32,837 nucleotides of DNA, from IMG/VR virus record IMGVR_UViG_3300020439_000041, positions 1 through 32,837 of that record; one strand, given 5' to 3'. The notes under the pieces are model-generated. The model had not been told where the DNA came from. It made no database searches and worked only from the letters and a program-made list of their open reading frames with translations. The position numbers and the translations under genes were made by a program. This stretch comes from a virus. Shown here piece by piece: positions 6,333 to 29,795 of the stretch (positions are counted from its first letter, which is position 1; each line of letters begins with the position of its first letter).

Positions 6333-9300
6333 TGGCATTCAATAGAGAAGTAATTGATTCAACTGCTACAGACTATAATGTTGACGAAATAAGTGAAAAT
6401 GATTTTGCATCAAATACAATTTTCGTACCTATTGATAGAAGTTTTACTGTTTCATTTGATGACAATATTGACGTAAACACAATAAGTGTATTCACGAATA
6501 ACACAGATATTGAAACGAGTGAAAGAGGAAAACGTGGATCTATACAATTATCATCGGTAGGTAATGATGGGTTAGGGTCTGATGCTGATTCGTTAAATTT
6601 GAGATTAAAAAAACAAACATCTTCACCTGATTTTGTAATAAGTTCTGATGGGCTGATAAAAGATGAGAATGCAACTATAGAAGTGGAAATGCTCAATGCT
6701 CCAGTATCCTCAAATGCAAATTCTAATTTTACATTTCAACCAGTAATTAATCTAGCAAGTAATTCTACATATGTTTTCAATATTACTGAAGATGTAAAAG
6801 ATGTTTTTGGAAGCAAGACAGATTTTACTGTAGGTACAGGATTTGTTACTGATAATTCAAGAAGTGTTATATTAAGTACAAATCCATTTAGAGGATACAA
6901 TGTAAATCTGTCTATTGATAATAAACTAAAATTTCTAAAAGATGAACAGGTTAAAAAGAAAGGTAGAAATTTACCTGTTGCGACAATTTTAGAACATGAA
7001 CAAATATCGAAAATAACTTATGACTTGAATCCTGTATGTTATTTTATAAATGTGGCGTTTACAGCCGCCAATCCGTGTGTAATTACAACTGCAACACCTC
7101 ATGGATTAGTTTCAGATAATAAGATTACGGTATATGAGATAGTTTCTGGTTCAGGATTATCATCAAGAACATATGATATAGCAAGTGTAGGAACAAATAC
7201 AATAACACTCGATGGTGTAAATTTACTCAATGGTACTGCTGGACGAATAAGTTTCTTTGTGAATTTTCATGCTGGTGATGAAATGATTTCTACTGGTAGA
7301 GATGATAATATACAAATAAAATTAGCATCGGCATCTACAAAAAATTTCGTTGAAATAGAAACTAATAAAGAATTATATCAATTTTTACCGACCACAACGA
7401 GTACAAATTATGCAAAGAGTATTAGATATGATGATGAAAATTCACAATTAAATTATGTTCCTGTAACAGGCGCAGACTCAAATGTAATTAAGGCTACCGA
7501 TAATTTTGCAAACAATATTATACTAAAACAAAAAACCGAGTCAGGTCCTATAACGATGTTTGTGAGTGCAAATACAAATCCTTTACATAATACACATCCT
7601 TTTAATACGTCTGCACCTACAGTAATTAATTTTGAGCCTGATGCTAATGATGCAATAACAAAAAAACTAGAAGTAGTTGAAATTTTAAGATCAGGTAGTA
7701 CCGCAATTGTAGTGACAAATTCTATTCACGCATTAGGAGTTGGTGATACAATACAGATTATTGGGTGCAACGAAACAGATTATAACAAAACAACTACAGT
7801 TCAAGAGATAATTGATTCAACAAGTTTCACCTATGAAGTATCAAACGATCCTAGAAGTCCAGCAACACCAACAAATAACAGAATTGAAATTAAAACTGGA
7901 TCGAGTCCATCTTCTCAGGCAACTGCGTTTCAAGTTCAATTTAGTCAATCTATGAATACAAGTACGATTAGCGTGGCAAATGCTTCACATTTCATTTATG
8001 CTAATGGTACTACAACGACAACCGGTTACAATAAAACACATGCTACAATACAATTATCTGATGACAATTTTGCCACAACAACTGGTTTAGTAAATTGTAA
8101 ATCTATATCTGCAAATACGGGTAATTCTTTATTTACAGTTATACCTGAAACTTTATTAAAAGGTAAATCATATAAGATAAAAGTGACAACAGGTGTTCAA
8201 GATTTAGGTGAGACAAATACAGATCTAGATTATATAACAACAAATACATTTGCCACTGGAACAAAAAGTTTAGATCCAAGAACTGGTAAGGAACTTGTAT
8301 TCGTTGATAATATACCTCCGAGAATTGAAAAGATATCATTAGGATCGAATGTTTTAGAAAGTGCAAATGTTGAAGAAATAACAAGTCCAGAATCTCTTGA
8401 TGCATTGGCAACAAACTTAGGAGGGGATTCATTTGTTGTACAATTTAATGAGAGCATGAACATAGCAACTGTCAATGTTAATTCGTCAAATACAGATCCA
8501 TTCGGAACTATACAATTGTCATGTGATGATTTTGTCACAGTTGTACAAATGTCTGCACAACCTGCAGTATCAACGACAGTAGAATTAAACGACACTTTTA
8601 CATTTGCTCCATCTCATAATTTATCTACAAATGCTAATTATACATTGAAAGTGACAAAAAGCGTAGCAGATGATTCACCAAATCAAAATTTTCTTGAGAC
8701 AGATAACGTATCATCAAATAAAGTATTAACTCTTACATCTGTTACTGGAACAGATTTTCCTGTAGGTGATACAGTCATAGGCACAAGAACTGCAAGCACA
8801 ACGGCAAATAGCGGAGCCGTTACTCTCAATGAAACCTTTTTAGGAACAACATCTTTAGCAAAAGGAATATTAAGAGCCCATACTCCTGGTAGTGGCACTC
8901 TTACGTCAATTGAATATACGGAAACTGCAAGTGAAGATGGCACAGTCAAAGAATTTGTTCCAGGTGAAGTTTTAACTGGACTCACATCAGGTCAAACTAT
9001 CACAACATCAAATGCGACTATAACACAGGCGGCATCAGGAGAGGTATTGTCATGGAACACCAGTACAAAAAAATTAACAATTAGACATACCAATACTGAC
9101 ATTGCATTTGATGCGACTGATGGTATATTGACAGGAGTGAAATACGGAGCAAAAGGTACAATAACTGCAACAACCAATGCAGGTATAAGCACTGCCGTTA
9201 CCTCTCTTACTGTAGACTCATTTATGAGAAAGTCAGATGACTCAATAGTTGATGTAGGTCAGCATGAAGGCGCCGCTGATGTTCCTGGAATAGATTTTGA

Positions 9301-12929: not shown

Positions 12930-15900
12930 ATGACTCAATATTTATCAGACGATACAAATAATAAAGTTGTTAATTCTATTGTTCCTCTTGTAGAACAACA
13001 GTTTCCTGAATTCATTCGTGAAGATGCAAAAACTTTCATAAATTTTATGAAAGAATATTATAAATGGATGGAATCAAGTGAAATTAAAATTACAAATTCG
13101 ACACAAAATGAATATAGATTCACTCTTGAAGATGATGATACAAATTTTGCTCTTGAAGATGGTACCAATCTTACTCTAGAAAGCACGAGAGAGACAGGTA
13201 ATACATCAATACTTAGTTCGTTTGAGAAGAATGAAAAAATTATTGGTCAAACTTCTGGAGCGGTAGGTATTGTTGATAGAAATATGACAACTTCTAATAC
13301 TGTTATTTTTGTAACAGGGTTAGAAAGATCAAAATTTTTAGCAGATGAAGAGATTATTGGAGAAAATAATAGAACAAAAGCAACCGTAACTTCATTTACT
13401 AAAAATCCTTTGTTCGCATCAAAATCATTATTGTCCGAAAGAGATATCGATTTAGTAGATAATAATATACTTGATTTTTTTAAGAAAGAATTTGCGGCAT
13501 CATCTGATAATATTATTGCCACTGAAAAAAGAGATTTATATAAAAGAATGTTTGATCTTTATAGATCAAAAGGCTCTGAATATTCTTATGATTTATTTTT
13601 TAAGTCATTTTTTGATGAGCAAAATTTAGAATATTATAAACCTAAAACAGATTTATTGAAACCTTCTTTTGGTGACTTCAGAAGAGAAAAAACACTCAGA
13701 ATTATAACAAGTGATACTAATGACAGATTTGAGTCAAGAATTATTACAGGTCAAACATCTTCCGCAACTGCCACAGTTGATAGGGTAGAAAATTTTCAAT
13801 CTGGTGCATTGACAGTAACAGAATTGTTTTTGACAAATATTGTTGGCACGTTTGTTGTAGGTGAAAATATTGTGTCATCTGAATTTGATGGTAATTCTGG
13901 TTCTGGAACTGCTCAAGGTGTTATAACAAATATCAATATTACAAGTGCAGGAACTAACTACAAGATTGGGGACACACTTACGATTACAGGTGGCGGTGGA
14001 CAAGATGCGGCCGCAAGAATATCTCAAATAGGTACTGGTGCTATTACTGGGTTTACAATTTTTGATGGTGGTGATGGTTATGTGAATACGGCCATTCTAA
14101 CTGTCAATAATTTTGCAACTGGTGGAACAGGTGTATCTGGTGATGTTAGTAACATAGCACACACATTTACTTTTTCTATCAACGAAGATATCATAGGTAA
14201 TTTTACCACGGTTGTTTTTAGTGATGCAAATTATGGTTTGTCTGGTCAAACAAGCACCCTTAAAACTACAAGATTGGTTGATGCTTTTGGTTTTTCCGCT
14301 TTACAGATTGGCACAATAGCAAATGTGAGAGCAACTGGTTTAGGCTCTGGTTATGAATTATCACCTTTAATATCAATTGTGCAAGATAATATATTAAAAT
14401 TTAATGAACCTGCAGTAGGTATTATAAATCTTAACGATGACCCAGATTCAATATCAGAAACAAATGCTATATCTGGAACTTTTAGAACAGGTGAAAGAAT
14501 TACTGCTAACTCTGGTAATAAGGTAGGAACTTTTTTAGGATTGGTAAGTAATACAACGACTTTAAGTGATCCTGCTAGATTTCGTGCTAGACCTATTGAG
14601 TATACTGGCACATTTGGTGTTGGTAGAAATGATTTGACTATTAACACAGATAATTATATTAATTCAACAATACCGACTGTTTATGATGTTCAATTTAATG
14701 CACCTACTGAAACTGGTGGACTAGAAGATACAAATACATTTGTATTTCGTAGAGGTATCAATGCCGCCAGTGTAACTGAATCAACAAACACAGATACGAC
14801 TATTCAATATACCTCATCATCGACTGCAATTACAGGTGCATTTCAGACATTACAATTTCCTGTTACAAGTGTTACAAGGTCAAGTACAACTGCAACTGTC
14901 ACAACACCTGTTAAGCATGGATTGGATGATGGACAAAAAGTAATATTATCAGGTGCTACACCCAGTGCATATAACGGAGAAAAAACAATTTCAGTTACAG
15001 GTGAGTCTACTTTTACATTTACTATATCTGGTAGTCCAACAACGCCTGCATCAGGAACGATAGTTTATGATGAAAACGTGGCAGTGAAATTCACATTACC
15101 TAAAGGTCACAAAGATGATGACAGGTTTTTATTTTCTGCAATAGATTTTACATCAAACGAAAAAATAACTGGATTTGATTCTTCTGCAAATGCAACGGTT
15201 AATACTGGTATTGCAATAGCAGATGGAGGTATCAAAGGAAATAATGCAGTTATTGATGTTGCTGGTTTGGCCGCTGGTTCTGTAAAAGAAATAGAACTTA
15301 TAAACTTTGGTGTTGGTTATACTAGCGCCCCTGCATTATCTCTTGCTAATAAAGGCGGTGGTAATGCTTTATTAACTGCTAATATTGGAGCGGTTGGTGA
15401 ACGTACAGGTGAATATCTTAATGAAGATGGAAGACCAAGTTCGTCAAAACGTATTGGAGATAGTAATTATTATCAAGATTATAGTTATTCATTACGATCC
15501 TCTAAACAAGTTTCTGAATATGAAGAAACAATTTTAGATCTTTTACATCCAGTAGGGACAAAACTATTTGGAGAGTATCGACCAACTCCTCCTACATTAC
15601 AAATGGGTTTTGATCATCTTCTTGCAAGCGAGGCAGGAGATATTTTAATTTTAGAAGATGGTGATAATATTTTAATGGAACAATATTATGATCCTTCTCA
15701 TAAAATAACTCTTGATAGATTACAGACATTAGAGACTGGAGGAACTGGACGCACAATTACAATTACTGGAAATTCGGATGTGATTATAGCAGATGAAGGT
15801 CTAACTGATGAAATGACATTAGAAGACGATAGTGGTGTAATGGTTCTTGAAACATTTGACAACTTTTTACTTGAAACAGGATTAACATCTACAGATTTCG

Positions 15901-17126
15901 AGGAAAATTTTATCGAAGGATCAAAAATAATTATTGATGATGAACAGGCATTTGAGATTACATATGGAGAATTACTTTTAGAAAAAACACTCACTGGAAC
16001 TATTAATAGTTCTTCATCTAACGTACTTTCATATCTTGTTCTAAACAATTCTAGTGCAAGTTTTGTTGTTGGTGAAGAGGTATTTCAAGGAGACACAGAT
16101 AGTTTCTTATTAGATAGTGATAATGGCACAAACTCTGCAAACATCGTTTCTAACTTTTTGACTCTTGAAACAGATACAAAATTTGTTTTAGAGGATAATT
16201 CATTATCGTTATTAGAATCAACTGATGATCCAATAAATGCAGATACGGGAGATTTTCTTTTAGAGACATCAAATTCTACTGTTTTCGATACAATGTTTTT
16301 AGAAACACAAAATACAAATTCTAATGGAACAGTACAAGAATATTCAACTGATGCTAGTAATAACAAAATTTTAATATTACATTCTACTAGCACGTTAGAT
16401 TTTAGTTTGTCATCTAATGCAAATGGTGTAACATCTGAAACAACTGCAAGTATATCGACATTCGATAAACATTTAATTCTTGGAGTCGATACAAATTTTC
16501 AAGATGAACTTACAATAAATGATGTCATTACACTACAGGGCGGAACGGAACAAATGCAAGTGTTAAGTATATTGAATTCAACCGCAATAATTTGTAATAC
16601 AACAATAGGTGATGGATCGACATCAAAATTTGATAATAATTTTGTAGATCACTTTATGCTTGAGACAACATTGAGAGGTACTACATCAGCAAATGGAATA
16701 AATGATGGTAATACTACGCTAATAGGCGTCAATTCTTTTTTTGATCAAGACTTGCTTATTGGTGATATTATTTGTTTAGCATCCAATACTACGATAAAAG
16801 CACAAGTGACATCTATTATTAATAGTACCGCTATTACTACTAATACTGTAATGGGAGATGGCACATCTAACGTTGGAATTGAATTAAAAAATTCTAGAAA
16901 CATGGATTTAGAACCATCAGAATTAACCATTACGTTATCAAATAAATATCAAGGAACAAACAATTTTATGGGTATAACCGACAATGATGGATTAGGGTTT
17001 ATTCATTTAGAAGACGGGGTTGGTTTGCTCAATGTTCTTTACACTGCATCAAATACAACATCTGGTAAAATACAGATGGAAGAACTATCGACATTTTCTA
17101 ATGTTGAACCAAAGATCATAATTTAA
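12930..17126 (+). CDS. giant modular virion protein in the gp7 position (1398 aa)
   Basis: The ATG at 12930 is chosen over an in-frame ATG at 12888 because the latter lies within the gp6 Ser/Thr tail; the product then begins MTQYLSDDTNNKVVNSIVPL. The first 60 residues contain FPEFIREDAKTFINFMKEYY, a motif I associate with marine T4-like baseplate-region proteins. The middle holds GE.I.G.TSGA.A.V repeats, two G-x-GY repeats, an HGL module (14855-15073) and a conserved-looking YYQDYSYSLRSSK then LLHPVGTKLFGEY block. The last third is a ladder of LE/LLE motifs and two GD.I.L.....IGDG modules. Position between gp6 and gp8 matches T4 gene 7, but I see no direct similarity to gp7. Confidence 0.85.
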   Translation: MTQYLSDDTNNKVVNSIVPLVEQQFPEFIREDAKTFINFMKEYYKWMESSEIKITNSTQNEYRFTLEDDDTNFALEDGTNLTLESTRETGNTSILSSFEKNEKIIGQTSGAVGIVDRNMTTSNTVIFVTGLERSKFLADEEIIGENNRTKATVTSFTKNPLFASKSLLSERDIDLVDNNILDFFKKEFAASSDNIIATEKRDLYKRMFDLYRSKGSEYSYDLFFKSFFDEQNLEYYKPKTDLLKPSFGDFRREKTLRIITSDTNDRFESRIITGQTSSATATVDRVENFQSGALTVTELFLTNIVGTFVVGENIVSSEFDGNSGSGTAQGVITNINITSAGTNYKIGDTLTITGGGGQDAAARISQIGTGAITGFTIFDGGDGYVNTAILTVNNFATGGTGVSGDVSNIAHTFTFSINEDIIGNFTTVVFSDANYGLSGQTSTLKTTRLVDAFGFSALQIGTIANVRATGLGSGYELSPLISIVQDNILKFNEPAVGIINLNDDPDSISETNAISGTFRTGERITANSGNKVGTFLGLVSNTTTLSDPARFRARPIEYTGTFGVGRNDLTINTDNYINSTIPTVYDVQFNAPTETGGLEDTNTFVFRRGINAASVTESTNTDTTIQYTSSSTAITGAFQTLQFPVTSVTRSSTTATVTTPVKHGLDDGQKVILSGATPSAYNGEKTISVTGESTFTFTISGSPTTPASGTIVYDENVAVKFTLPKGHKDDDRFLFSAIDFTSNEKITGFDSSANATVNTGIAIADGGIKGNNAVIDVAGLAAGSVKEIELINFGVGYTSAPALSLANKGGGNALLTANIGAVGERTGEYLNEDGRPSSSKRIGDSNYYQDYSYSLRSSKQVSEYEETILDLLHPVGTKLFGEYRPTPPTLQMGFDHLLASEAGDILILEDGDNILMEQYYDPSHKITLDRLQTLETGGTGRTITITGNSDVIIADEGLTDEMTLEDDSGVMVLETFDNFLLETGLTSTDFEENFIEGSKIIIDDEQAFEITYGELLLEKTLTGTINSSSSNVLSYLVLNNSSASFVVGEEVFQGDTDSFLLDSDNGTNSANIVSNFLTLETDTKFVLEDNSLSLLESTDDPINADTGDFLLETSNSTVFDTMFLETQNTNSNGTVQEYSTDASNNKILILHSTSTLDFSLSSNANGVTSETTASISTFDKHLILGVDTNFQDELTINDVITLQGGTEQMQVLSILNSTAIICNTTIGDGSTSKFDNNFVDHFMLETTLRGTTSANGINDGNTTLIGVNSFFDQDLLIGDIICLASNTTIKAQVTSIINSTAITTNTVMGDGTSNVGIELKNSRNMDLEPSELTITLSNKYQGTNNFMGITDNDGLGFIHLEDGVGLLNVLYTASNTTSGKIQMEELSTFSNVEPKIII
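14855..15073 (+). repeat. HGL-type beta module, copy 3 (protein level)
   Basis: This segment encodes ATVTTPVKHGLDDGQKVILS, a SAYNGEKTISVTG turn and STFTFTISGSPTTPASGT. It is the clearest representative of the module and closely parallels the copy at 19756. Confidence 0.7.
15610..16680 (+). repeat. LE/LLE ladder region
   Basis: Over about 350 codons the protein repeats short strands ending in Leu-Glu: ILILEDGDNILMEQ, MTLEDDSGVMVLET, FLLETG, FLTLETDTKFVLED, LSLLEST, FLLETS, MFLETQ, FMLETT. A shorter set of the same kind lies at 13112-13200, and another at the C-terminus of gp15. Confidence 0.6.
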
Positions 17127-17127
17127 T

Positions 17128-17135
17128 CATAAATA
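17128..17135 (+). promoter_or_regulatory. late-promoter-like octamer before gp8
   Basis: CATAAATA lies in the 14-base gap between the gp7-position gene and gp8 and ends exactly 5 bases before the ATG at 17141. It matches the T4 late consensus TATAAATA in seven of eight positions. No Shine-Dalgarno is visible before this gene. Confidence 0.5.
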
Positions 17136-17140
17136 ATAAT

Positions 17141-18943
17141 ATGCCTAATCTAGTTACAAATAAATTTAAGATACATAACGCTGAACAATTTATAGAATCT
17201 TTATCGGAAACTTCTGCTACAAATCTTTTTTTGTTTATAGGTAAAGTTAATGCATGGGGTGATGAGAATGATCCTCCTGCACCAACTGACTCTATCGCAA
17301 ATACTTCATTTGATTATTGGAGATCAATGATCTCATCAAAAAAAGTAACTTCTGCTGATGTGAGTCATATCATACCTAGAATTAATTGGGAATCAAATAC
17401 TGCTTATACGGCACATAGTCAAAAAAATAATGAGCAATCAGCAAATAATTTTTATGTTGTAACGGATCAATTAAATGTGTATAAATGCTTACAGAATAAT
17501 GTCGCAAATGGGGCATCTACTATCAAGCCTACAGGTACTGGAACTGGACTTATTGAGTTAGGAGATGGATATAAATGGAAGTATATGTACACAATTTCTC
17601 CACAAGATACATTAAAATTTACGACATCTGAATACATTCCTGTTAAAAAAGTTGGAAATGTAAATGATGGATCTAATCAGTACACGGTTGAACAGTCTGC
17701 AACAGATGGTGCGATTGATGTAATCAATAGAACATCGAACGGTAATTATCTCGTAACTTTTTCTGCAACACCAACTGACAGTACAGGTGTTGAGGTAAGA
17801 AATTTCGTTAATGGTGAAATTGTTACAGGACAAACAACTTCAAGTCAGGGTGTTGTAATCACTTATGAGTCAGGTGCTAATACTTTAGTTTATTTTCCTA
17901 ATGCAAATGCATTGTTTTCAGGTAGCGAAATTCTTGTTGGTAATACATCTGGTGCACAAGCAACAATAAATTCTGATATTGTTTCTACTTATAAGTTTGA
18001 GGAAAATGTTTTTTCTTCAGTTACAAATACTACAACATTACAATTGGCCACAGATGCTAATACAACATCTGATAGTGTGTATGTTGGTTCTACATTATAC
18101 ATAACAAACAATGCTGGTAGAGGAGAACAATCAGTCATTTCAGGTTATGATGCCGCCCTAAGACGAGTTACCGTATCTTCACCATTCACTATTACACCTA
18201 ATACAAGTTCTGGTTATACGATATCTCCTACCGTAACAATAAACGGTGATGGTATAGATGCAAAAGCAAGATCAATAGGAAATACAACATTTGGTGTAAA
18301 AGACATTTTAGTAACTAATAAAGGTCTGAATTATACAACCGCTTCAATCACTATAAGTGCCAATTCATCACATGGATCAGGAGCAAATGCTGAAGTTATT
18401 ATTGGTCCAGTGGGTGGACATGGTTTTAATGCTATTGAAGAATTGGCAGGAAATAGAGTATTAGTTGACTCAAGAATTACAGGAAATGAATCTGGATTTT
18501 TTACTACTGAGAATGAATTTAGACAAGTTGGTTTAGTAAGAGACCCATTACAAACTGCAAATTCTCAGGCATTTTATACATCTGATTTAGCAGATCAAGC
18601 AACTAAAATTACAGTTGCACAAGTTGCAGGTACATTTCAATCTGATGAAGTTGTATTTCAAGGAGATTCTTTAGCAAATAGTACAGCCAATGGAGTTGTA
18701 ATTGATTTTCTAAATAATAACAGGGTAAGATTAAATCAAGTATCTGGTTCTTTTGTGTCAAATTCTACAGTAAATTCTATTACAGGTAATACTTCAGGTG
18801 CAACTGCGGTTATCGTTGCAAATGGTGTTTCTGATCCAGACATGAAACCTTATAGTGGAGACATTTTGTATATTGAAAATAGAACAAACGTAACTAGAGC
18901 AACCAATCAAATCGAGGATTTCAAGATTGTTCTTGAGTTTTAA
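17141..18943 (+). CDS. 8: baseplate wedge protein gp8, enlarged
   Basis: gp8 is a dimeric wedge protein at the outer baseplate. Similarity to T4 gp8 is seen at both ends: YWRSMISSKKVTSADVSHII then PRINW, IELGDGYKWKYMYTISPQD, SEYIPVKK, then ENEFRQVGLVRDPL, and the final SGDILYIENRTNVTRATNQI block. T4 gp8 is 334 residues and this protein is 600. The extra length is two insertions of beta modules, at about 17660-18470 and 18580-18840, containing EIVTGQTTSSQGVVI, EILVGNTSGAQATI and SITGNTSGATAVIV repeats and a G-x-NY repeat. The gene follows a late-promoter-like octamer. Identity as gp8 is confident; what the insertions do is not known. Confidence 0.9.
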   Translation: MPNLVTNKFKIHNAEQFIESLSETSATNLFLFIGKVNAWGDENDPPAPTDSIANTSFDYWRSMISSKKVTSADVSHIIPRINWESNTAYTAHSQKNNEQSANNFYVVTDQLNVYKCLQNNVANGASTIKPTGTGTGLIELGDGYKWKYMYTISPQDTLKFTTSEYIPVKKVGNVNDGSNQYTVEQSATDGAIDVINRTSNGNYLVTFSATPTDSTGVEVRNFVNGEIVTGQTTSSQGVVITYESGANTLVYFPNANALFSGSEILVGNTSGAQATINSDIVSTYKFEENVFSSVTNTTTLQLATDANTTSDSVYVGSTLYITNNAGRGEQSVISGYDAALRRVTVSSPFTITPNTSSGYTISPTVTINGDGIDAKARSIGNTTFGVKDILVTNKGLNYTTASITISANSSHGSGANAEVIIGPVGGHGFNAIEELAGNRVLVDSRITGNESGFFTTENEFRQVGLVRDPLQTANSQAFYTSDLADQATKITVAQVAGTFQSDEVVFQGDSLANSTANGVVIDFLNNNRVRLNQVSGSFVSNSTVNSITGNTSGATAVIVANGVSDPDMKPYSGDILYIENRTNVTRATNQIEDFKIVLEF

Positions 18944-18946
18944 GGA
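18942..18946 (+). promoter_or_regulatory. Shine-Dalgarno site before the DUF4815-type gene
   Basis: AAGGA overlaps the gp8 stop codon and lies 6 bases before the ATG at 18953, fixing that start. Confidence 0.6.
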
Positions 18947-18952
18947 ATAGTA

Positions 18953-21900
18953 ATGCCTAAATTAACTACCGACTTTAACGTAACGCCATACTTTGATGAT
19001 TTTGATGAGGCGAAAAAATTTTTTAAGATATTATATCGTCCAGCATATTCTGTACAAGCAAGAGAACTTTCTCAAATGCAATCTATTTTACAGAATCAAA
19101 TCGAACAATTAGGTGATTATAATTTTTCAGATGGCGATAGGGTTTATGGTGGTGAAATTTCTCTCAATACGAAAATCAATGCTCTTAAATTAAAAACAAA
19201 TTATGCAGGTGTAGAAATCGATGTATCTAATTTTGAGGGTAGAATTGTTGAAGGTAATACATCAGGTGCGAGGGCCAAAGTTGTTAAAGCAGAAAAATTT
19301 ACGCAAACAACTCTTAACACATTAATGATTAATTATCTTGATGAAAAAACATTTCTCGATGATGAAATTATTCAATCCGTTGATACTGGAACCACATACT
19401 TTGCAAATGTTGCTGGAGAAGATGAAGGACTTGCAGATGTAACTACTCTTACGACATCTATAGCCTCGACAGTTGGTTCAATCGTTTCAATTGAAGAAGG
19501 TGTATTTTATGTTGGTGGATATTTTGTTTACGTAGGTCCTCAAACTATAGTTTTAGATCAGTATAAAAATGCACCCACCTATAGAATAGGTTTGCAAATC
19601 GTAGAAACTATAGTATCAAGTGTTGATGATACAAGTCTCTTAGACAATGCTTTAGGTTCACCGAATTATACTGCACCAGGCGCAAATCGTTATAAGATAG
19701 ATCTTACTTTATCCAAAAAAGATATTTTTCAAGGTGGTGTTCCAATAGTATCGTCTGGTTTAACTTTTACTGCATCTTCTAACACTGCCACGATTACCAC
19801 ATCAACAGATCATAACTTAAATAATGGTGATATAGTTGTTGTAAGTGGGTCAAATCAACCTGAATATAATGGCAGATTTCCAATTGCAAATGTAACAAGC
19901 GGAACAACTTTCACATATTTTGTTGCTGGCAAACCAGATACACCATCTACAGGAGTCCCAGAATATACGAAAGTGATAACAGATCCACTTGAAGCAAAAT
20001 CAGATGTAGATTTCATTGAATTGTTGAGAGTTGAAAATGGTATTATTACAAAACAAATAACAAATCCATTGTACGGTGCAATTGGTGATGTTCTTGCAAG
20101 AAGAACATTTGATCAGTCAGGTGATTTTACAGTAAAGCCATTTTCAATAGCATTTGAGACACATAAAATTGCTGGTGTTGCATCCTCAAGAACAAGTGCA
20201 AACGCATGTACAAATTTTACAGGTTCTGGCACAGGATTTGTATCTCAATTATCAGAGGGTGATACAATTTTTCTATCAGGAAACACAAACAAAACTGCAA
20301 CAATTTCCTCGATTGCAAATAATACAACTCTCACATTAACATCAGGAAGCACATTAGGTGATGGTTCTAATAATCAAAAAGTAGGTGTAGACTCTAAAGT
20401 GACGGCGGCCCTTAGTCAAGGCAAAGCATATATTAAAGGTTATGAATTTGAGACTGTAACTACTTCATTTATTGACATTGATAAAGGTAGAGATACAAGA
20501 ACTGTTTCTGGAGAGCAACAAGGAATGGATTTTGGTCCTTTCTTAAAAGTTACAGATCTATATCAAAAAGTAGGTTTTGATCTTAGTGTGGATCTAGGAG
20601 CATTAGGAACTGGTAGTGGTGGAGCAGGTTTAGATTTGATTGAATTGCATTGTGTTAAATGGGCATCTACAGATGCTATGAATAGTGAAGATAGATCTAT
20701 CTTGACAACTGCAAGTGACATAACAAATAGTACAAATAATAATATTGATTTTATAGGTATCGATCCAACAAGTGATCATACAAAAATAGGTACTGCTAGA
20801 ATACGACAACTTGATTACAGAGGCGGTAGAGATAGTTCTGTAACAACATTATATGATAGTAGCCCAGGATCAGAAGCAAATACCGCACACAAAATTTTTC
20901 ATTCAATTTACGATGCACATCTTTTTGATTTTAGATTTAACAAAACTACAGGAACTGTTTCGGCCGCAAATGCTAATACAAGTCAAGTCAATCTTGCAAC
21001 AAATAAATTTGGTACTGCCAATACATTATATGGTGTAGAGGTAACTGTAAATACGTCTTTTCTTGGTGTGACAACATCTGATACAAGAAAAATTGTAGCA
21101 TGGACTGGATCAGAAAACGGTGTATTTTCAGCGCCGATGGATGTACATTATGTGGCCGCTTTAGATAGTCCATTGTCACAACCGACAACTGCCACATCAA
21201 CATACAGTCTAAATTTTTCAATTAAGAATGTAAGATCTGGTGTGAAAATAGATTCTAATGCTATTACTGATGCGTTTAATATTGACCCAAGCGGTAAAGT
21301 GGGTGGTGTAGAAACTGGTGATACCATACTCTATAAAGCAAATGACGAAGAAAGAAGTTTAATCTTTCCATTACAAAATTCTACAGTAGCGAATCTAAAT
21401 CCAACAGGTTCAAGTTCAACAACTTATAGATTCAAGAGAACATTTACTGTAACTCTTAACTCTACTTCAGGTGGTACTGCAACTGCTCCTGCTGGAGAGC
21501 AATTTTATCCTGCTACAACCAAAACATTGTCTGCCTCAGAATCGGATGCAAACTATATTATCACTGCTGTTACTGGCACACATGAAGGAAGAGTAATAGA
21601 ATTCTCAAATACTTCTGGCACCGGATTAAATGGTGGTTCATCTTACACAAGAAGCATTGCACTTGAAAACAATGGTGGAACATTAGTTGTTCAAGCACGT
21701 TCGGATGCTACCGGTGCTCCTAATTTTGCTTCACATCAAGTTCAAGTCATTGCAACAATGCAAAGATCAAATGCTACGAATAGTGGTGCAGGATCACAAA
21801 TTGCGAAGAAAACACTTGTCACTGGTAATACAACTGTAGCAAACGTGGATCACAATTCATCAAACACAATACAAGCAGATTCAGGACAAATTGTATTTGG

Positions 21901-24900
21901 CACTTCAATGAACGTACAACCTGGTGCAAATAATTCATTGAAGATTGCAGACGTTAAAAAATTAGTTGCGGTTGTCGATTCACTTAATCCAGATGCTAAT
22001 GTAAAAACAACAATGGTGACAGGGGCAATTGCAGATACGGCAAATCAGCACAATATCACTTCACGATTTGTTTTTGATAATGGTCAAAAAGATAATTATT
22101 ATGATTATGGAAAGATTTCGTTAAAACCAGGTGAAGATAAACCAGTTGGTCAAGTAGTAGCAATAATTGATTATTATACTCATAGTGGCACAGGACCAAT
22201 GACAGTTGACTCGTTTATTTATAGTGGTTCAGGTAATACCCCATACACAGAAATTCCATCTTTCACATCACCTGTTACAGGAAATAAATTTCAATTAAGA
22301 GATGTGATTGATTTTAGACCAAAAAGAATAGGAATTGAAACCGCAAATACGGATGGTTCATCTTACATAAATGATATAACAACAACGGCAAATGTTTTTG
22401 CAGGCAAAGTTTTACCAGATTTTGACTATACATTTGATACCGATTATTCACATTATTTACCTAGAAAAGATAAGATTGTTTTAACAAGAGATAGGAATTT
22501 TAAGGTCATTAAAGGGGTGTCTGATATTGCTCCAGTATTACCAGCAGATGATGAAGATAGTATGACATTATACTCAATGGAAATTCCTGCATATACATTT
22601 ACTCCAAATGACATTCAAGCACGATATGTAGATAACAAAAGATTTACAATGAGAGATATAGGTACTCTCGAAAAACGTATTGAGAATTTAGAGTATTATG
22701 TATCTCTTAATTTGTTAGAAAAAGAGGCTGATGGTTTAACAATTACAGATACAAATTCTAATGATAGATTCAAGAATGGTATATTGGTTGACCCTTTTGC
22801 TGGTCATAGTATTGGAGATGTGTTTAATGATGACTATAATGTTTCAGTAGATTTTGATAAAAAACATTTAAGACCTCCTGTCAAAACAGATTTATATAAA
22901 CTAAAATTTGATTCCAATACAGAAAATAGTACATTAGTCAATAATGGTGGAATTTTGACTCTTCCATTCTCATCTAGTTCAATGATTGATCAGCCATTGA
23001 CTGGTAATCTTTTAGGTAAGAATCAACAGAAAAGAATAAATGTCAATCCATATTCATTCCAAAATTACATTGGTACATGTGATTTAGATCCTCCAACAGA
23101 CAATTGGTATGACAATTCTGCTCGACCACAAGTTGTAGTAAATCTTGAGGGACAATATGATAATTGGGCAGACATGGTTACATCTAATGGTCATGGTTCA
23201 CATTATAATGATTGGGAAGAAATATGGTCTGGAGTTCAAGTAATTGATGATGTAAAGGTTGGTTCGAGAGATGCTGGAGATGTTGCAACAAATGATAGGA
23301 GAGCAAAAACAACCACGCAGAATAAAACTCTCAGCGGTCTTAAAAAAGGAAATGTACCTGAAAAGATATTAAAAACTATAGGTAATAAAATCGTAAATGT
23401 TTCTGTAATCAATAAAATGAGAGAACAGACAATTACGTTTGTTGCAAAAGGATTGAAACCAAATCTTAATGTGTATGCATTTTTTGATGATGGTAGAATA
23501 ACAGACAAAGTAAAGCAAGCAAGTTTGATTTCTCTATCTAACGTAAGTACATCAAATGTTTTTAGAACAACATCATCTAATTTTGAGACAATAAGAATTA
23601 CTGGTTCTGGAGGCAATGCTGGTAATACTGCAAAAGTTGTTTATATGTCAGATAGAAATGATGTAAATTCATGCTCAGTTATGTTAGTTAATATGACAAA
23701 TGAAAATGCATTTAATATAGGATCTGTAATTCAAGGTATAGATACTGGAGCAAACGGTACAATTTCTGCGGTGACAAACTATCAACTTTCTGACGGACAG
23801 ATTACAGTATCAAATGAAGGTGTTACGGCTGGTGTGTTTAATGTTCCAGCAGGTCAATTTTCATCTGGAGAAACTGTTTTTAGATTATCCGATGAATCTG
23901 ACAATATTTTGTCAGCCACAACATCAGTAGCAGAAAGAATCTTTCATAATAAAGGTGCTATTGATTCTAATAGGGAAGATAACGTAGTTTCTGTTCGTCC
24001 TTTAATTAAAAAACGTGATGACATCAGTAGTGATAAAATTGTAAAGAGTTATGCGACACCAAGAAGATCTGAATCAAATAAATTTTTTGCTCCATTATCA
24101 CAATCCTTTTTTGTATCAGAAGATAATTATCCATCAGGTGTTTTCATAGACAGTATCGAATTGTATTTTTATAATAAAGAATCTTCTACTGGTTCTAAGA
24201 ATAGTATTTCTCTTGATTTAAGACCAATGGTAGATGGATCACCAAGTCCTTCAGTAGTGATTCCTGGATCACAAGTTACTTTATCTCCAGGTAGAGTTAC
24301 CGCAAATACAAGCACTCCTGTAGCAAATACATCAGGTGGATTTCCATCAGCAACATTAGGAAACTCTTTAACGGCAAATAAACAAGGAAATAACGTAGGA
24401 TCGAGAACAATTTTTAAGTTTGATTTTCCTGTGTTTCTAAACCCTGGAGAGTTTGCGTTTACATTGAATAGTGCATCAAGTGAATATGAACTTTATGGAT
24501 ATGATCTTGGTGCAAAACATACAGGAACGGATAGAAAAATAACTCAACAACCATACGTAGGAAAACTTTTTAAGCCTTCCAATGCTGAGGCAAGAAATCC
24601 AATTGCTACTGAAGGTTTGATGTTTAGAATTAATAGATGTAATTTTACAAGTGATTTAGGTCATGCTAGACTAACAAATATTGAAACATCATCAGGCAAT
24701 GCTACATCAAATACAATCATGGATAGTATGAAAGTTATGTCAGACCTAATGGAATTTTCTGAAACGTCTTCAATTTTTCATTATTATTCTACGGCAAAAA
24801 ATGCATCTGTAAAAGGTATAGCAACCGCTTTCACTGTCAATAAGAACGTAGATTTTAAGACACAACAACAAATTACATATGAAACAGATACCAATGTAGA

Positions 24901-25801
24901 TGCACATTCTAATTCATTTCAGTTGAATGTTTATTTTACAACTGCAAATACAATATTAAGTCCTGTGTATGATGAAACAAGAAGTGGTATTATAGGTGTA
25001 GAAAATGATGTAAACAATGCAGGATTGAGTAATAATAATTTACTTGTATTAAATACTGGTGCAGGTTTGTTGCAGTCAGAAATTGGAGGTGATACTGGTA
25101 GATACGCATCAAAGAATGCAGTGGATGGTAATACAAGTGTATTCACCGTATCTGCACCTGACGTTGGAACAAATACTGCAACTATTGCCGCTAATGTTTC
25201 GGGCGACGGTAAGATTAATGATATAAAAGTCGTAAATCCAGGCAGTGGATATCTCACTACACCAACAATAACATTAGCATCAATAACTAATTCAACAAAT
25301 CCTGTTGTTAAAATTATAGGCGAAGGTGCTAATGGCAGTAACATGCTTTCAGCAAATACTGAAAATTCAAGAGGTGGAAATATAACTGCAAGATATGTTT
25401 CTAGAAGAGTGACCTTGGAAGAGGGTTTTGATGCTTCTGATTTGAGGGTATACATGAATGCATATAAACCAAGAGGGTCTAACATCTATGTTTATTATAA
25501 AGTATTATCTGCTGAAGATTCTGAAAATTTTGATGATAAACCATATATCTTAATGTCACAAGACACATCAGAAGGTCTTTTCTCATTGAATGAAAATGAT
25601 TTCAAGGAGTATGTATTTAAGACTACTGATGAGAAGATAAACTATACATCAAATGATAGTACAACTGTTTATACAAATTTTAGAACATTTGCTGTAAAGG
25701 TTGTTTTCACAAGAGATTTGGATATACAAACAACTTACATTGGTATTCCAAAGGTTTCTGATCTTAAAGTTATTGCTCTCGATAGCGTAGGAAATCCATA
25801 A
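18953..25801 (+). CDS. giant DUF4815-type virion protein (2282 aa)
   Basis: The N-terminus (residues 1-60: FNVTPYFDDFDEAKKFFKIL, then PAYSVQARELSQMQSILQNQ) is the signature of the DUF4815 family of T4-like marine phages. It is followed by a GRIVEGNTSGARAKVV repeat, an HGL module (19756-19975) and a GD.IFL module (20176-20390). The conserved body continues with RDVIDFRPKR and DIQARYVDNKRFTMRDIGTL, which leads into a coiled coil. The C-terminal third has FFAPLSQSFFVSEDNYPSG then VFIDSIELYFYN, and ITQQPYVGKLFKPSNA, a pattern I know from similar proteins. It ends in a domain with VYYKVLSAEDSENFDD. It occupies the place of T4 genes 9-12. A peripheral baseplate or fibre-attachment role is inferred. 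Confidence 0.88.
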   Translation: MPKLTTDFNVTPYFDDFDEAKKFFKILYRPAYSVQARELSQMQSILQNQIEQLGDYNFSDGDRVYGGEISLNTKINALKLKTNYAGVEIDVSNFEGRIVEGNTSGARAKVVKAEKFTQTTLNTLMINYLDEKTFLDDEIIQSVDTGTTYFANVAGEDEGLADVTTLTTSIASTVGSIVSIEEGVFYVGGYFVYVGPQTIVLDQYKNAPTYRIGLQIVETIVSSVDDTSLLDNALGSPNYTAPGANRYKIDLTLSKKDIFQGGVPIVSSGLTFTASSNTATITTSTDHNLNNGDIVVVSGSNQPEYNGRFPIANVTSGTTFTYFVAGKPDTPSTGVPEYTKVITDPLEAKSDVDFIELLRVENGIITKQITNPLYGAIGDVLARRTFDQSGDFTVKPFSIAFETHKIAGVASSRTSANACTNFTGSGTGFVSQLSEGDTIFLSGNTNKTATISSIANNTTLTLTSGSTLGDGSNNQKVGVDSKVTAALSQGKAYIKGYEFETVTTSFIDIDKGRDTRTVSGEQQGMDFGPFLKVTDLYQKVGFDLSVDLGALGTGSGGAGLDLIELHCVKWASTDAMNSEDRSILTTASDITNSTNNNIDFIGIDPTSDHTKIGTARIRQLDYRGGRDSSVTTLYDSSPGSEANTAHKIFHSIYDAHLFDFRFNKTTGTVSAANANTSQVNLATNKFGTANTLYGVEVTVNTSFLGVTTSDTRKIVAWTGSENGVFSAPMDVHYVAALDSPLSQPTTATSTYSLNFSIKNVRSGVKIDSNAITDAFNIDPSGKVGGVETGDTILYKANDEERSLIFPLQNSTVANLNPTGSSSTTYRFKRTFTVTLNSTSGGTATAPAGEQFYPATTKTLSASESDANYIITAVTGTHEGRVIEFSNTSGTGLNGGSSYTRSIALENNGGTLVVQARSDATGAPNFASHQVQVIATMQRSNATNSGAGSQIAKKTLVTGNTTVANVDHNSSNTIQADSGQIVFGTSMNVQPGANNSLKIADVKKLVAVVDSLNPDANVKTTMVTGAIADTANQHNITSRFVFDNGQKDNYYDYGKISLKPGEDKPVGQVVAIIDYYTHSGTGPMTVDSFIYSGSGNTPYTEIPSFTSPVTGNKFQLRDVIDFRPKRIGIETANTDGSSYINDITTTANVFAGKVLPDFDYTFDTDYSHYLPRKDKIVLTRDRNFKVIKGVSDIAPVLPADDEDSMTLYSMEIPAYTFTPNDIQARYVDNKRFTMRDIGTLEKRIENLEYYVSLNLLEKEADGLTITDTNSNDRFKNGILVDPFAGHSIGDVFNDDYNVSVDFDKKHLRPPVKTDLYKLKFDSNTENSTLVNNGGILTLPFSSSSMIDQPLTGNLLGKNQQKRINVNPYSFQNYIGTCDLDPPTDNWYDNSARPQVVVNLEGQYDNWADMVTSNGHGSHYNDWEEIWSGVQVIDDVKVGSRDAGDVATNDRRAKTTTQNKTLSGLKKGNVPEKILKTIGNKIVNVSVINKMREQTITFVAKGLKPNLNVYAFFDDGRITDKVKQASLISLSNVSTSNVFRTTSSNFETIRITGSGGNAGNTAKVVYMSDRNDVNSCSVMLVNMTNENAFNIGSVIQGIDTGANGTISAVTNYQLSDGQITVSNEGVTAGVFNVPAGQFSSGETVFRLSDESDNILSATTSVAERIFHNKGAIDSNREDNVVSVRPLIKKRDDISSDKIVKSYATPRRSESNKFFAPLSQSFFVSEDNYPSGVFIDSIELYFYNKESSTGSKNSISLDLRPMVDGSPSPSVVIPGSQVTLSPGRVTANTSTPVANTSGGFPSATLGNSLTANKQGNNVGSRTIFKFDFPVFLNPGEFAFTLNSASSEYELYGYDLGAKHTGTDRKITQQPYVGKLFKPSNAEARNPIATEGLMFRINRCNFTSDLGHARLTNIETSSGNATSNTIMDSMKVMSDLMEFSETSSIFHYYSTAKNASVKGIATAFTVNKNVDFKTQQQITYETDTNVDAHSNSFQLNVYFTTANTILSPVYDETRSGIIGVENDVNNAGLSNNNLLVLNTGAGLLQSEIGGDTGRYASKNAVDGNTSVFTVSAPDVGTNTATIAANVSGDGKINDIKVVNPGSGYLTTPTITLASITNSTNPVVKIIGEGANGSNMLSANTENSRGGNITARYVSRRVTLEEGFDASDLRVYMNAYKPRGSNIYVYYKVLSAEDSENFDDKPYILMSQDTSEGLFSLNENDFKEYVFKTTDEKINYTSNDSTTVYTNFRTFAVKVVFTRDLDIQTTYIGIPKVSDLKVIALDSVGNP
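19756..19975 (+). repeat. HGL-type beta module, copy 4 (protein level)
   Basis: This segment encodes ATITTSTDHNLNNGDIVVVS, a PEYNGRFPIANVT turn and TTFTYFVAGKPDTPSTGV, matching copy 3 motif by motif with HNL in place of HGL. Confidence 0.7.
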
Positions 25802-26010
25802 TGAAAGTAAAAACTGATAATCCAAATTATCTAAAAGATTTGTCTAGCAATGCATTGTTAGCAAATGATAGGAGTGCATTGTTACTACATAGAAAAAAAT
25901 TATCAGAGTCACAACAAATAAATAATTTGAGATCAGAAATGAACGACTTAAAAAACAAAGTAGACTTGATATTATTTCATCTACAAGATATGAGAGGGTC
26001 TAATGCCTAG
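25801..26010 (+). CDS. small coiled-coil protein (69 aa)
   Basis: The ATG overlaps the stop of the giant protein (TAATG) and the end overlaps the next gene by 8 bases. The N-terminus reads MKVKTDNPNYLKDLSSNALL, and the second half is a charged helix with heptad spacing (QQINNLRSEMNDLKNKVDLI). Small proteins with an N-terminal NPN-type segment and a C-terminal coiled coil are common in T4-like marine phages, but no function is known to me. Its coupling to the giant protein and the fibre-like protein suggests a role in their assembly, which is inference. Confidence 0.8.
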   Translation: MKVKTDNPNYLKDLSSNALLANDRSALLLHRKKLSESQQINNLRSEMNDLKNKVDLILFHLQDMRGSNA

Positions 26011-27922
26011 TGTAAGCGTAGTAGAATTAACAAATACATTTGACGATTGGCGTAATAGAACAAATGACGTTATTACAGAAATTAATGGTGCTAATAGTGT
26101 AGACCCTACAAGTGCTATTGTCTATGCAAATTCAACATCAGGTTTTCAGGTAAATGAAGTTGTATCAGATTCCTTGACAGGAACCGCAATCTCAGGAACG
26201 AGACTTATATTTACTGGTGGTAATATAAATTTTACTTCTGCAAATACGACATCATTAGGTAATGTTCATCAAACTCATATTTTAGGCGGTACTGCAATAG
26301 ATGTCAGTACACCTGAAAATGCAGATACATCAATATCAAATACATTTGTATATAATAGTAAAATAAATCTCAATGGACAAAAATTCGTTAGTGGCGCCGC
26401 CGAAATAAATTTACAAGGTGCAACCGTAACAAATCTTGGTGCAGTGGCAAAATTTACAAGTACGGCTATTACAGATGATGACGTTGTTTTAACTAACCCA
26501 ACAATAAATGTTAATAGTGGTACGGTTGGGGGTCTTACAATATCTGCAGGTGTTCATGAATTTGGCGGTGCAACTGTAAATGGTGCATCAATGAACACGA
26601 TTACAATGAGTGGCAGTACAGTTCAAGGAGGTAATGTTGTAGTCAATGGTGCAGGATTTTTAGTAACGACAAATAGTGTGGCACTTGCAGTTGATGGAGA
26701 TGCTGATGCGAATGTTGCTATAGGTAAGTTTCCAGAAATTTCAACTGATATAGGTACAACTAAAAATCCAAGTTCTTCTAAAAGTCGATTGCATGTTAGA
26801 TCGGATTTTGCCGCCGGTAGTACAACTGCTACGGCAGTTGAATCGGTTGCTGATGAATTGATTTTAGAAAATATTAGTGATGCAGGAATGACTATATTAA
26901 CAGGTGCAACAAAAAATAATCATATTGCATTTGGAAATTCAGGTGATCCAGATGTGGGCGGAATTATTTACGACCACGACACAGAAGATATGCATTTCGT
27001 TACTGATAGTGCTAATACAGTTATTTTTTCACATAGTTTTGGAGGCAGTGTACAAATTGTAGGTGGTGATACAGTAGGGACACCTTCTGGTAAATTACAT
27101 GTTAATGTAGGATCAACTGACGGTGCGGCTGGTTTGCTTATAGATTCTAATGATGCTGATCAATATGGAATTTTTATATCTGCAAGTCAAACTACTCAGC
27201 ATGTTATGGAAATCGACACCTCGACTTTGAGTACAGGTTCTGCAATTTTTATAGACGATAATTCTGCTGAGTCAGGTCCAAGAAAAATACTTCATATTGA
27301 CCAAAGTCATGCTGATGCTGGAGGTACTGGTTTTCATATTGAAACATCAGGTATGAAGGCCGTAGATATTGTACAAAATACACTCGATCAAGTTGCATTA
27401 AATGTATCAGCATCTGGAATACAAACCGAACCATTAGTAAGTTTTATCAATTCAGGTGATGCTGATGATATGACGTTGTATATAAAAAATCAGAGAACTG
27501 ATGGTGGTCTTATAGCAGAGATTGCAAATAATTCATCTTCAGGAGTTTTTGCCGTATCTGCAAATGGTAATATAGGAGTAAACGATTCAACACCGACAAA
27601 AAAATTAGATGTTGTTGGTGATATAAGAGCAACAACTGATATGTTTGTTGGAAGTTCAATAATTCATGATGGGGATACAGATACATTTATTTCTTTTGGA
27701 ACAGATACGATAACATTTAAGTCCGCTAATGAATCTAAAATTTACATTGATGCTTCCGCAGTCACTTTATATCACGATAATAATCCAAAACTTGCTACCA
27801 CAAGCACAGGTGTAAGTGTGACAGGTAATATGACACTTACTGGCACAAGTGTTTGTGCTGGTGGCATACAATGTGCCGTAAGAGTTGAAGATACTAATGG
27901 CACATTACTCAACACATGTTAA
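26003..27922 (+). CDS. fibre-like virion protein with C-terminal cysteine cluster (639 aa)
   Basis: The N-terminus (VVELTNTFDDWRNRTNDVIT) is a helical attachment segment of a kind seen in marine T4-like fibre-like proteins. The rest is repeated beta strands: a NINFTSANTTSLGN region, then SRLHVRSDFAAGSTTATAVE, ELILENISDAGMTILTGAT and IIYDHDTEDMHFVTDSA, then LHVNVGSTDGAAGLLIDSND and KKLDVVGDIRATTDMFVGSS with HDGDTDTFISFGTDTITF. These segments resemble the region that precedes intramolecular chaperone domains in some tail fibres, but no such chaperone domain follows. All three cysteines (C618, C624, C639) are in the last 22 residues, the last being the final residue. Host-surface binding is inference. 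Confidence 0.82.
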   Translation: MPSVSVVELTNTFDDWRNRTNDVITEINGANSVDPTSAIVYANSTSGFQVNEVVSDSLTGTAISGTRLIFTGGNINFTSANTTSLGNVHQTHILGGTAIDVSTPENADTSISNTFVYNSKINLNGQKFVSGAAEINLQGATVTNLGAVAKFTSTAITDDDVVLTNPTINVNSGTVGGLTISAGVHEFGGATVNGASMNTITMSGSTVQGGNVVVNGAGFLVTTNSVALAVDGDADANVAIGKFPEISTDIGTTKNPSSSKSRLHVRSDFAAGSTTATAVESVADELILENISDAGMTILTGATKNNHIAFGNSGDPDVGGIIYDHDTEDMHFVTDSANTVIFSHSFGGSVQIVGGDTVGTPSGKLHVNVGSTDGAAGLLIDSNDADQYGIFISASQTTQHVMEIDTSTLSTGSAIFIDDNSAESGPRKILHIDQSHADAGGTGFHIETSGMKAVDIVQNTLDQVALNVSASGIQTEPLVSFINSGDADDMTLYIKNQRTDGGLIAEIANNSSSGVFAVSANGNIGVNDSTPTKKLDVVGDIRATTDMFVGSSIIHDGDTDTFISFGTDTITFKSANESKIYIDASAVTLYHDNNPKLATTSTGVSVTGNMTLTGTSVCAGGIQCAVRVEDTNGTLLNTC

Positions 27923-27930
27923 GAGAATAA

Positions 27931-28935
27931 ATGGCAAAACCTAGTTCACGAGAAGCATTAAAACAGTATTGCCTAAGAATGTTAGGTAAGCCAGTTGTTG
28001 AAGTAAATGTCGATGATGATCAATTAGAAGATCGTATTGATGAAGGTTTACAATATTTTCAAGAGTATCATTTTGATGGAGTAGAAAAAACTTATTTAAG
28101 ACATAAAATAACAGGTTCAACTATAACTGTTTCAAGTGTTGTTGGAGATTTTGAGCAAGGTGAAAAAATTACAGGAGGTACGTCAAATGCAACGGCAGTA
28201 GTACATGCCGCCAATTCAAGTGTAATAACATTTAAGGAACATAAAGACGGAACAGGAGTACAGAACAATAATACATCTTCTACTTTTACAAGTAGTGAAA
28301 CGATAACAGGATCACAATCAAGTGCAACTGCAACGGCAGGAACGGTCACGTTCGGAGATGTCGATAATCATTTTATACCAATTGACGATAGAATTATAGG
28401 CGTAGTAAACATTTTTGATATACACGATGCGGCAGGCGGACAAACTTCTGCCAACATGTTTAATTTTAGATATCAATTTCACCTAAATGAAATGCCTTTT
28501 CTTACTGGTGGATCTATTGCTCATTATCAAATGACTCAATCTCATTTGCAATTAATGCAAGATATGTTTGTAGGTAAAAAACCTATAAGATTTAATAGGC
28601 ATCAAAATCGTTTATATCTCGATTTAGATTGGGCAAACGATGATGTTAAGATTGATGAGTTTGTGGTGGCAGAATGTTTTGCGGTCGTAAATCCTGATAC
28701 ATTTACTGATGTTTACAACGATATATTCTTAAAAAAATATGTAACTGCACTTTTCAAGAGACAATGGGGAGCAAATTTAATTAAGTATGATGGTGTACAA
28801 TTACCAGGTGGTGTCAATCTAAATGGTAGACAACTATTTGAGGATGCTATCACAGAACTTAATCAGATTGAGGAAGATATGCAATTGCGTAATGAACTTC
28901 CTGTTGACATGATGATTGGAGCAGGACCTTTCTAA
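27931..28935 (+). CDS. 13: neck protein gp13 with beta-module insertion
   Basis: gp13 joins the filled head to the tail together with gp14. The N-terminus matches the family: SREALKQYCLRMLGKPVVEV, then DQLEDRIDEGLQYFQEYHFD. The C-terminal two thirds (FNFRYQFHLNEMPFLTGGSI, RFNRHQNRLYLDLDW, YVTALFKRQWGANLIKYDGV) also fit. Between them, residues about 61-145 are an inserted pair of GEKITGGTSNATAVV and SETITGSQSSATATA repeats, like those in other virion proteins here. Total length is 334 residues against 309 in T4, so the shared core is shorter than in T4. The stop overlaps gp14 as TAATG. Confidence 0.92.
   Translation: MAKPSSREALKQYCLRMLGKPVVEVNVDDDQLEDRIDEGLQYFQEYHFDGVEKTYLRHKITGSTITVSSVVGDFEQGEKITGGTSNATAVVHAANSSVITFKEHKDGTGVQNNNTSSTFTSSETITGSQSSATATAGTVTFGDVDNHFIPIDDRIIGVVNIFDIHDAAGGQTSANMFNFRYQFHLNEMPFLTGGSIAHYQMTQSHLQLMQDMFVGKKPIRFNRHQNRLYLDLDWANDDVKIDEFVVAECFAVVNPDTFTDVYNDIFLKKYVTALFKRQWGANLIKYDGVQLPGGVNLNGRQLFEDAITELNQIEEDMQLRNELPVDMMIGAGPF
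28111..28365 (+). repeat. ITG-TS module insertion inside gp13
   Basis: Two consecutive copies of F..GE.ITGG.SNATA.V followed by a strand are inserted between the conserved N-terminal helices and the conserved body of gp13. Related copies lie in the gp7-position protein, gp8, the DUF4815-type protein and gp14. Confidence 0.65.
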
Positions 28936-29795
28936 TGACCACAAGCGTATACTTCAATCATATTGAAAGCACACCAGAGCAAAATCTTCATCAAGATCTT
29001 ATCATAGAAGCAATAAAAAACTATGGTATAGATGTATACTATTTACCTAGAAAATATGTAAATGAAGATTTATTATATGGTGAAGATACAATATCAGAAT
29101 TTAATCAAGCACACCTTATAGAAATGTATGTAAAATCAGTAGACGGTTTTGAGGGTGAAGGGGATTTTGTATCTAGATTTGGACTAGAAATACGTGATCA
29201 AGTTGTATTTTCTGTAGCAAGAAGACGTTTTGATAACCTAGATATCACAGAACAAGACAGACCTTTAGAGGGTGATGTAATATTTTTTCCCTTAAACAAA
29301 AAATTATATGAGATAAGATTTGTAGAACATGAATCAATGTTTTATCAATTTGGTAAATTACCTATCTTTGATTTGACATGTGAATTATTTCAATATGATG
29401 ATCAAAGAATTGATACAGGCGTTGAAGTCATAGACGAGATTGAAGACAAACTCGCTTATTCTATTAATCTTGCCATGGGTGATGGATCAGGTGCTTATGT
29501 AGATGATGAAACAGTTTATGTTGGAGATTCTGTATCATCTGCAAATACAAAAGCAAGAGTAGTATCTTGGAATTCTACTGATAAAACATTAAAGATTACA
29601 GATATAGTTGGAACTTTTGGAGCGACATCAAATATTGTAGGAGACACAAGCGGTGCCTATTATAGTTTAAGCACTACTCCTGATACAAAAGTTTTTACAA
29701 ACGATACGATTGCTAACAATGTTACAATACAAACTGAATCTGATTCAATAATAGATTTCTCTGAATCTAATCCATTCAGTGAAGGTAATATTTAA
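28935..29795 (+). CDS. 14: neck protein gp14
   Basis: This is the partner of gp13 in the neck. T4 gp14 similarity is clear: IIEAIKNYGIDVYYLPRKYV with NEDLLYGED, then MYVKSVDGFEGEGDFVSRFG, DRPLEGDVIFFPLNKKLYEI and MFYQFGKLP, with an ending of ESNPFSEG that recalls the T4 SSPF end. Length is 286 residues against 256 in T4. The C-terminal region (about 29478-29690) carries a beta insertion with YVGDSVSSANTKARVVSW and NIVGDTSGAYYSL, again of the module type shared across this window. The stop overlaps the stop of the minus-strand gene within a TTAA palindrome. Confidence 0.92.
   Translation: MTTSVYFNHIESTPEQNLHQDLIIEAIKNYGIDVYYLPRKYVNEDLLYGEDTISEFNQAHLIEMYVKSVDGFEGEGDFVSRFGLEIRDQVVFSVARRRFDNLDITEQDRPLEGDVIFFPLNKKLYEIRFVEHESMFYQFGKLPIFDLTCELFQYDDQRIDTGVEVIDEIEDKLAYSINLAMGDGSGAYVDDETVYVGDSVSSANTKARVVSWNSTDKTLKITDIVGTFGATSNIVGDTSGAYYSLSTTPDTKVFTNDTIANNVTIQTESDSIIDFSESNPFSEGNI

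Follow-up and report, generated by a model that had tools for sequence, protein, structure and literature searches.

The motif F..GE.I.G.TSGA.A.V, which recurs in unrelated virion proteins encoded by a marine T4-like phage, marks what we regard, with a probability of roughly 0.75, as an ancient structural domain that is exchangeable among the virion proteins of tailed phages, a six-strand barrel that has been reused. The DNA analyzed (the window) is a virus contig of 33 kb (32,837 nt) consisting of the structural block of the phage, with genes for gp5, an Ig-repeat protein, gp25, gp6, a gp7-position protein, gp8, a DUF4815/VrlC-type protein, a possible fibre protein, gp13, gp14 and gp15. The cyanophages S-SM1 and ACG-2014b display the same order as the window, gp7-gp8-VrlC ... 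gp13-gp14-gp15.

The set searched for the motif comprised 1,528 ORFs: those of the window, of seven annotated phages and of 156 related contig loci. A strict regular expression produced 115 matches in this set and none once the same proteins had been shuffled; an HMM of 23 positions, derived from the strict motif, produced 358 matches at a limit of E<0.01, versus none in twice as many decoys (composition-matched shuffled and reversed). HMM-positive ORFs were found for gp13 (74/86), gp7 (54/79), gp8 (41/88), DUF4815 (15/118), gp14 (1/83) and the Ig protein (2/16), per-family counts that are no census, because the loci were fetched as relatives of window gp14 and gp8. One further match fell in an unassigned ORF of Cr30. 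Within the same set, gp5, gp6, gp25, gp15 and the fibre-like ORF gave no HMM match, and none of the T4 ORFs in the 50 kb fetched passed the E<0.01 limit. HMMs built with one family left out recovered 74/86 gp13, 41/79 gp7 and 32/88 gp8 ORFs with no decoy matches, as well as 21/118 DUF4815 relatives, the window's own DUF4815 copy not among them; the gp14 and Ig copies were essentially unrecovered by a short HMM built without their family. When profiles were compared by hhalign, gp7_A, gp7_B, gp7_C, gp8_A, gp8_B, gp13, gp14 and the first DUF4815 copy (Table 1) were each joined to a best partner at 94-98%, whereas the maximum in 360 control comparisons, which used segments of the same proteins, was 24%. 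The motif is therefore genuine and not a product of chance, and the copies proved significantly similar in profile, so that one of the two refuting outcomes named in the first-pass annotation of this DNA did not arise.

Most of the places at which that annotation had put the motif were borne out: residues 112 (13221) and about 283 (13735) of gp7, residues 222, 259 and 547 of gp8, residue ~92 of the DUF4815 protein, residues 72 and 116 of gp13, and residue ~236 of gp14. Its list for gp7 was correct in both of the copies given, but overlooked a third, single half; in gp14 a copy is present as claimed, although only the second half had been noted and the first starts near 29490. The relaxed copy that it placed near 8950 in the Ig-repeat protein has moderate support from sequence comparison (about 90% to gp13), and the DUF4815 copy at 23710 is a weak, unproven candidate at 50%.

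Table 1. Copies of the module and associated features in the window
Feature	Residues	Window positions	Strand	Evidence
Ig-repeat protein, relaxed copy	800-905	8729..9046	+	hhalign 89.7% to gp13; HMM 0.002
gp7_A, first module	104-178	13197..13421	+	HMM 3.9e-7; hhalign 98.1% to gp8_A, 97.4% to gp13
gp7 anchor, YRSKGSE	212-260	13521..13667	+	common with T4 gp7 716-759, hhalign 94.7%, E 5.9e-8
gp7_B, second module	268-352	13689..13943	+	positional counterpart of T4 gp7 766-844; 96.5% to DUF4815 copy
gp7_C, single half-module	742-775	15111..15212	+	HMM 1.4e-7; hhalign 93.8% to gp7_A
gp8_A, inserted module	202-281	17744..17983	+	missing in L110 and T4 gp8
gp8_B, module near gp8 C-terminus	486-565	18596..18835	+	missing in T4 gp8
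DUF4815 protein, first module	86-165	19208..19447	+	hhalign 96.5% to gp7_B, 94.7% to gp7_A
DUF4815 protein, possible second module	1584-1675	23702..23977	+	best hhalign 50% to gp7_B; candidate
gp13 gene		27931-28935		
gp13 module	62-146	28114..28368	+	clean insertion
gp14 module, C-terminal tail	184-262	29484..29720	+	hhalign 96.4% to gp8_B; phrog_460 1.3e-9

Two other segments of gp7 were considered as extra copies and rejected: residues 1060-1115 failed in hhalign, and residues 520-575 reached 88% to gp7_B over 19 columns and 64% to gp13 over 13 columns, which is too little. The same proteins also harbor other repeats. A second shared beta module was observed in gp7 (14850-15092), the DUF4815 protein (19766-19969, phmmer 1.5e-12) and the Ig-repeat protein (7670-7873, 3.5e-7), and relatives also have it in their gp7, DUF4815 and Ig-type ORFs; a weak Pfam match to E1_FCCH, below threshold, overlaps its gp7 copy. 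Residues 1175-1326 of gp7 (about 16410-16865) contain two copies of a different small repeat (phmmer 1.6e-8), with a weak match to DUF4815 (0.0024). Another barrel, in gp8 residues 282-363 (17984-18229), has structural matches in 6tba_7A, a gene-transfer-agent protein (Z 12.2), and, among phages, in tail-tip/baseplate proteins of Chi and JBD30; by alignment it is absent from T4 gp8.

The domain spans 60-85 residues and is built from two similar halves of about 37, spaced 36-38 residues apart (45 in gp13). AlphaFold models were used for gp8 (mean pLDDT 90) and gp13, where the module itself lies near pLDDT 80 and the whole model is mediocre (pTM 0.44). The same six-strand order was predicted in all three modeled copies, gp13, gp8_A and gp8_B, so that the other refuting outcome of the first-pass annotation, different folds for the copies, was not seen among them; in gp13 the strands are E63-71, 79-82, 88-94, 98-102, 124-127 and 133-140. 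The motif corresponds to strand 2, a turn and strand 3, and then again to strand 5, a turn and strand 6. In each modeled copy, strand 6 begins 9 residues after the beginning of strand 5, and the corresponding distance from strand 2 to strand 3 is 9, 9 and 12. Conservation is highest at Phe 4, Glu 8, Ile/Val 10, Gly 12, Ser 15, Ala 19 and Val 21, columns for which the profile itself selects. Conservation of glycine, serine, an acidic turn residue and core hydrophobics suggests a role in the fold rather than in an active site.

Database searches gave the module no established name. For the four copies scanned, no Pfam model exceeded its curated cut-off and no Ig or Big family matched at the module; below threshold were CCL2-like, a lectin-like family (13.5 bits versus a cut-off of 27), and BclA_C (15 versus 38). 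Big_5 matches in the Ig-repeat protein lie elsewhere than the module. NCBIfam returned nothing for the seven proteins scanned, and a PDB sequence search with the module consensus returned PilE alone, a chance match. A viral fold search with gp8 retrieved relatives of gp8 along with further structural proteins of phages, at match ranges not resolved to the module. No description of the module, or of the T4 gp7 domain discussed below, was found in a literature search that left out most subscription papers.

Among solved structures, the closest folds are the six-strand barrels of T4 gp7 766-844, eIF2-gamma, EF-Tu and F1-ATPase. The gp13 module was matched to T4 gp7 766-844 (PDB 5hx2 chain A) with a VIA Z of 6.3 and an rmsd of 2.3 over 67 residues, a middling score, given that the EF-Tu, eIF2-gamma and F1-ATPase barrels reach 5-6.4; the T4 segment was nonetheless the best structural match outside gp13 and portal-adaptor proteins. 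Position and profile lead independently to the same segment: gp7_B and T4 gp7 766-844 each lie directly downstream of the anchor KR..K..DLYRSKGTE..Y..LFK.LYN. Residues 200-360 of window gp7 aligned with T4 gp7 716-843 at 96.7% (hhalign, E 4.5e-10), and the alignment ran through the domain, its score rising from 55.6 for the anchor alone to 75.3 for anchor plus module; deprived of the anchor, the T4 segment reached 17% against gp7_B. Among anchored gp7s, the short HMM formally matched after the anchor in 17/49, and the motif is visible by eye in most; aligning the gp7 family over its full length left too many gaps for the result to be of use. The T4 domain lacks the G.TSGA signature of the window copies, single T4 sequences did not match the module profiles, and the link was seen only by structural match and anchored profile. 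The claim that T4 core proteins are devoid of the motif thus holds for plain sequence comparison, but not for T4 gp7 when structure and position are taken into account. We conclude that gp7_B and T4 gp7 766-844 very likely represent one domain at one and the same site, which makes gp7 the oldest detectable site of the domain. Whether the gp7 core was also the ancestral home, from which the domain was repeatedly grafted into neck, wedge and fibre proteins, concerns the direction of transfer; the role of gp7 as source is a tentative reading to which we would give less than even odds. If it is correct, part of virion elaboration would consist in the reuse of the phages' own baseplate domain.

In gp13, gp8 and gp14, the module is a clean insertion with relatives that are free of it, and the matching sites of the three T4 proteins are empty. 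The gp13 insertion comprises about 83 residues and follows ITGS; gp13 of L084, L085, T4, S-SM1, HTVC008M, Cr30 and OC is without it. A gp8 that is 57% identical to that of the window (L110) does not contain gp8_A, and gp8_B is common within this gp8 group. In gp14 the module occurs in S-SM1, but not in T4, Cr30 or OC. In T4, domain II of gp13 (52-192) makes up a peripheral ring, and within the virion gp15 is bound by the C-terminal region of gp14 (178-256) (PMC12270204); the gp13 insertion site falls in the counterpart of this peripheral swing domain, and the gp14 module sits in the tail which in T4 binds gp15 (PMC12270204). Domain III of T4 gp13 (T4 residues 190-239) is fibritin-binding (PMC12270204), and by alignment window gp13 has no counterpart of it.

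The first-pass annotation had described a module that is exchangeable between virion proteins otherwise unrelated, and this is supported by the cross-family hhalign matches, the clean presence or absence and the strand order shared by the gp13 and gp8 models. It had also held that, within one phage, the unit was copied from one virion gene to another, and this was not supported. Copies group by protein and position, with a same-family median of 100-150 bits versus about 45 across families, so that same-site copies in other phages are far closer. A same-phage copy was the best cross-family match in 0/20 cases, a test skewed by the larger number of candidate copies that other phages supply; in the fairer gp13-gp8 pair test, same-contig pairs (n=12) averaged 23.5 bits versus 27.2 between contigs (permutation P 0.93), giving no excess within a phage. 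A direct-repeat search revealed no long DNA repeats joining copies. The copies are inherited in place, with no sign of recent intragenomic copying.

These results bear on the alternative that the module is a surface-decoration or adhesion unit, exposed, binding host or environmental glycans and spread by intragenomic copying. The placement of the gp13 insertion in the ring-forming domain, the occurrence of carriers elsewhere among tail fibres and a lambda-J-like protein, and the sub-threshold lectin-like match would all accord with such a unit, but same-phage copies are no closer to one another, DNA repeats between copies are absent, one copy is a conserved part of the gp7 core with a T4 counterpart, another lies in the gp15-binding tail of gp14, and the conserved residues are of a structural kind; we consider this alternative unlikely. 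A structural building block fits better, because the gp14 copy occupies the gp15-binding tail and gp7_B a conserved core stretch. Convergence on a low-complexity beta pattern with G/T/S/A-rich turns, common in virion proteins and without shared ancestry, might be entertained from the richness of the carriers in T, S, N and G, the loss of the gp14 and Ig copies when their own family was left out and the several other short beta repeats in the same proteins, but is strongly disfavored and very improbable in light of the empty composition-matched and reversed decoys, the leave-family-out recovery of gp13, gp7 and gp8, control segments at or below 24%, the two-half architecture with its regular spacing, and the identical predicted strand order in gp13, gp8_A and gp8_B.

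In the reading as a reused structural domain, one copy directly follows the YRSKGTE anchor of gp7, the wedge protein of the baseplate, where T4 gp7 has its counterpart; gp13, gp8, gp14 and the DUF4815 protein would have received the other copies as grafts in loops or tails and later passed them on in place. The module may act as an extra packing and interface block, presumably non-catalytic, that enlarges or bridges baseplate and neck subunits. On evidence of fold, position and inheritance, and judged from the descriptions of the T4 domains, such an interface or packing role is the most likely, with decoration or adhesion possible; surface exposure, as first proposed, is plausible, and the copies are probably located on the outside of the virion as well as at its joints.

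The domain extends beyond T4-like wedge and neck proteins. A search with the module consensus identified at least 401 confirmed viral-contig stretches and 17 bacterial-genome loci, and carriers include a lambda-J-like tail fibre (phrog_31), a podovirus-type tail protein (phrog_376), a gp9-like fibre connector (phrog_677), amidase-family proteins (phrog_5107) and a beta-helix protein. PHROG 460, the gp14 family, cross-matches gp7 and gp13. In HTVC008M, the ORF at the gp7 position that bears the gp7 anchor (L007:13435-16485) has been annotated as 'head closure Hc2', which is also the label of the phrog_3465 family that it matches; this label was probably carried over via shared domains. The module offers a likely reason for misleading labels of this kind. 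It is a small domain without a Pfam model, widespread in virions of marine and other phages and tied to a solved part of T4 gp7; a curated model would tidy annotation and make its function testable.

Against known systems, the barrels of EF-Tu and eIF2-gamma and the N-terminal barrel of F1-ATPase resemble the module at the scores given above over 56-76 residues, with no sequence similarity found, and the likeness probably reflects merely a common kind of six-strand barrel. Ig-like domains are likewise small beta domains common to unrelated virion proteins; they form the Ig sandwich, whereas the module has six strands in two similar halves. An N-terminal Ig-like domain is listed among shuffled tail-protein domains in PMC10684548, which, in the portion bearing on this point, describes homologous fragments as common to different functional classes of phage proteins. 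The emphasis there is on fibres, spikes, baseplate proteins and endolysins, whereas the fragment described here joins neck, baseplate wedge and DUF4815 proteins. Domain sharing among phage structural proteins is, on that account, already known (PMC10684548), and the module is a fresh instance of it.
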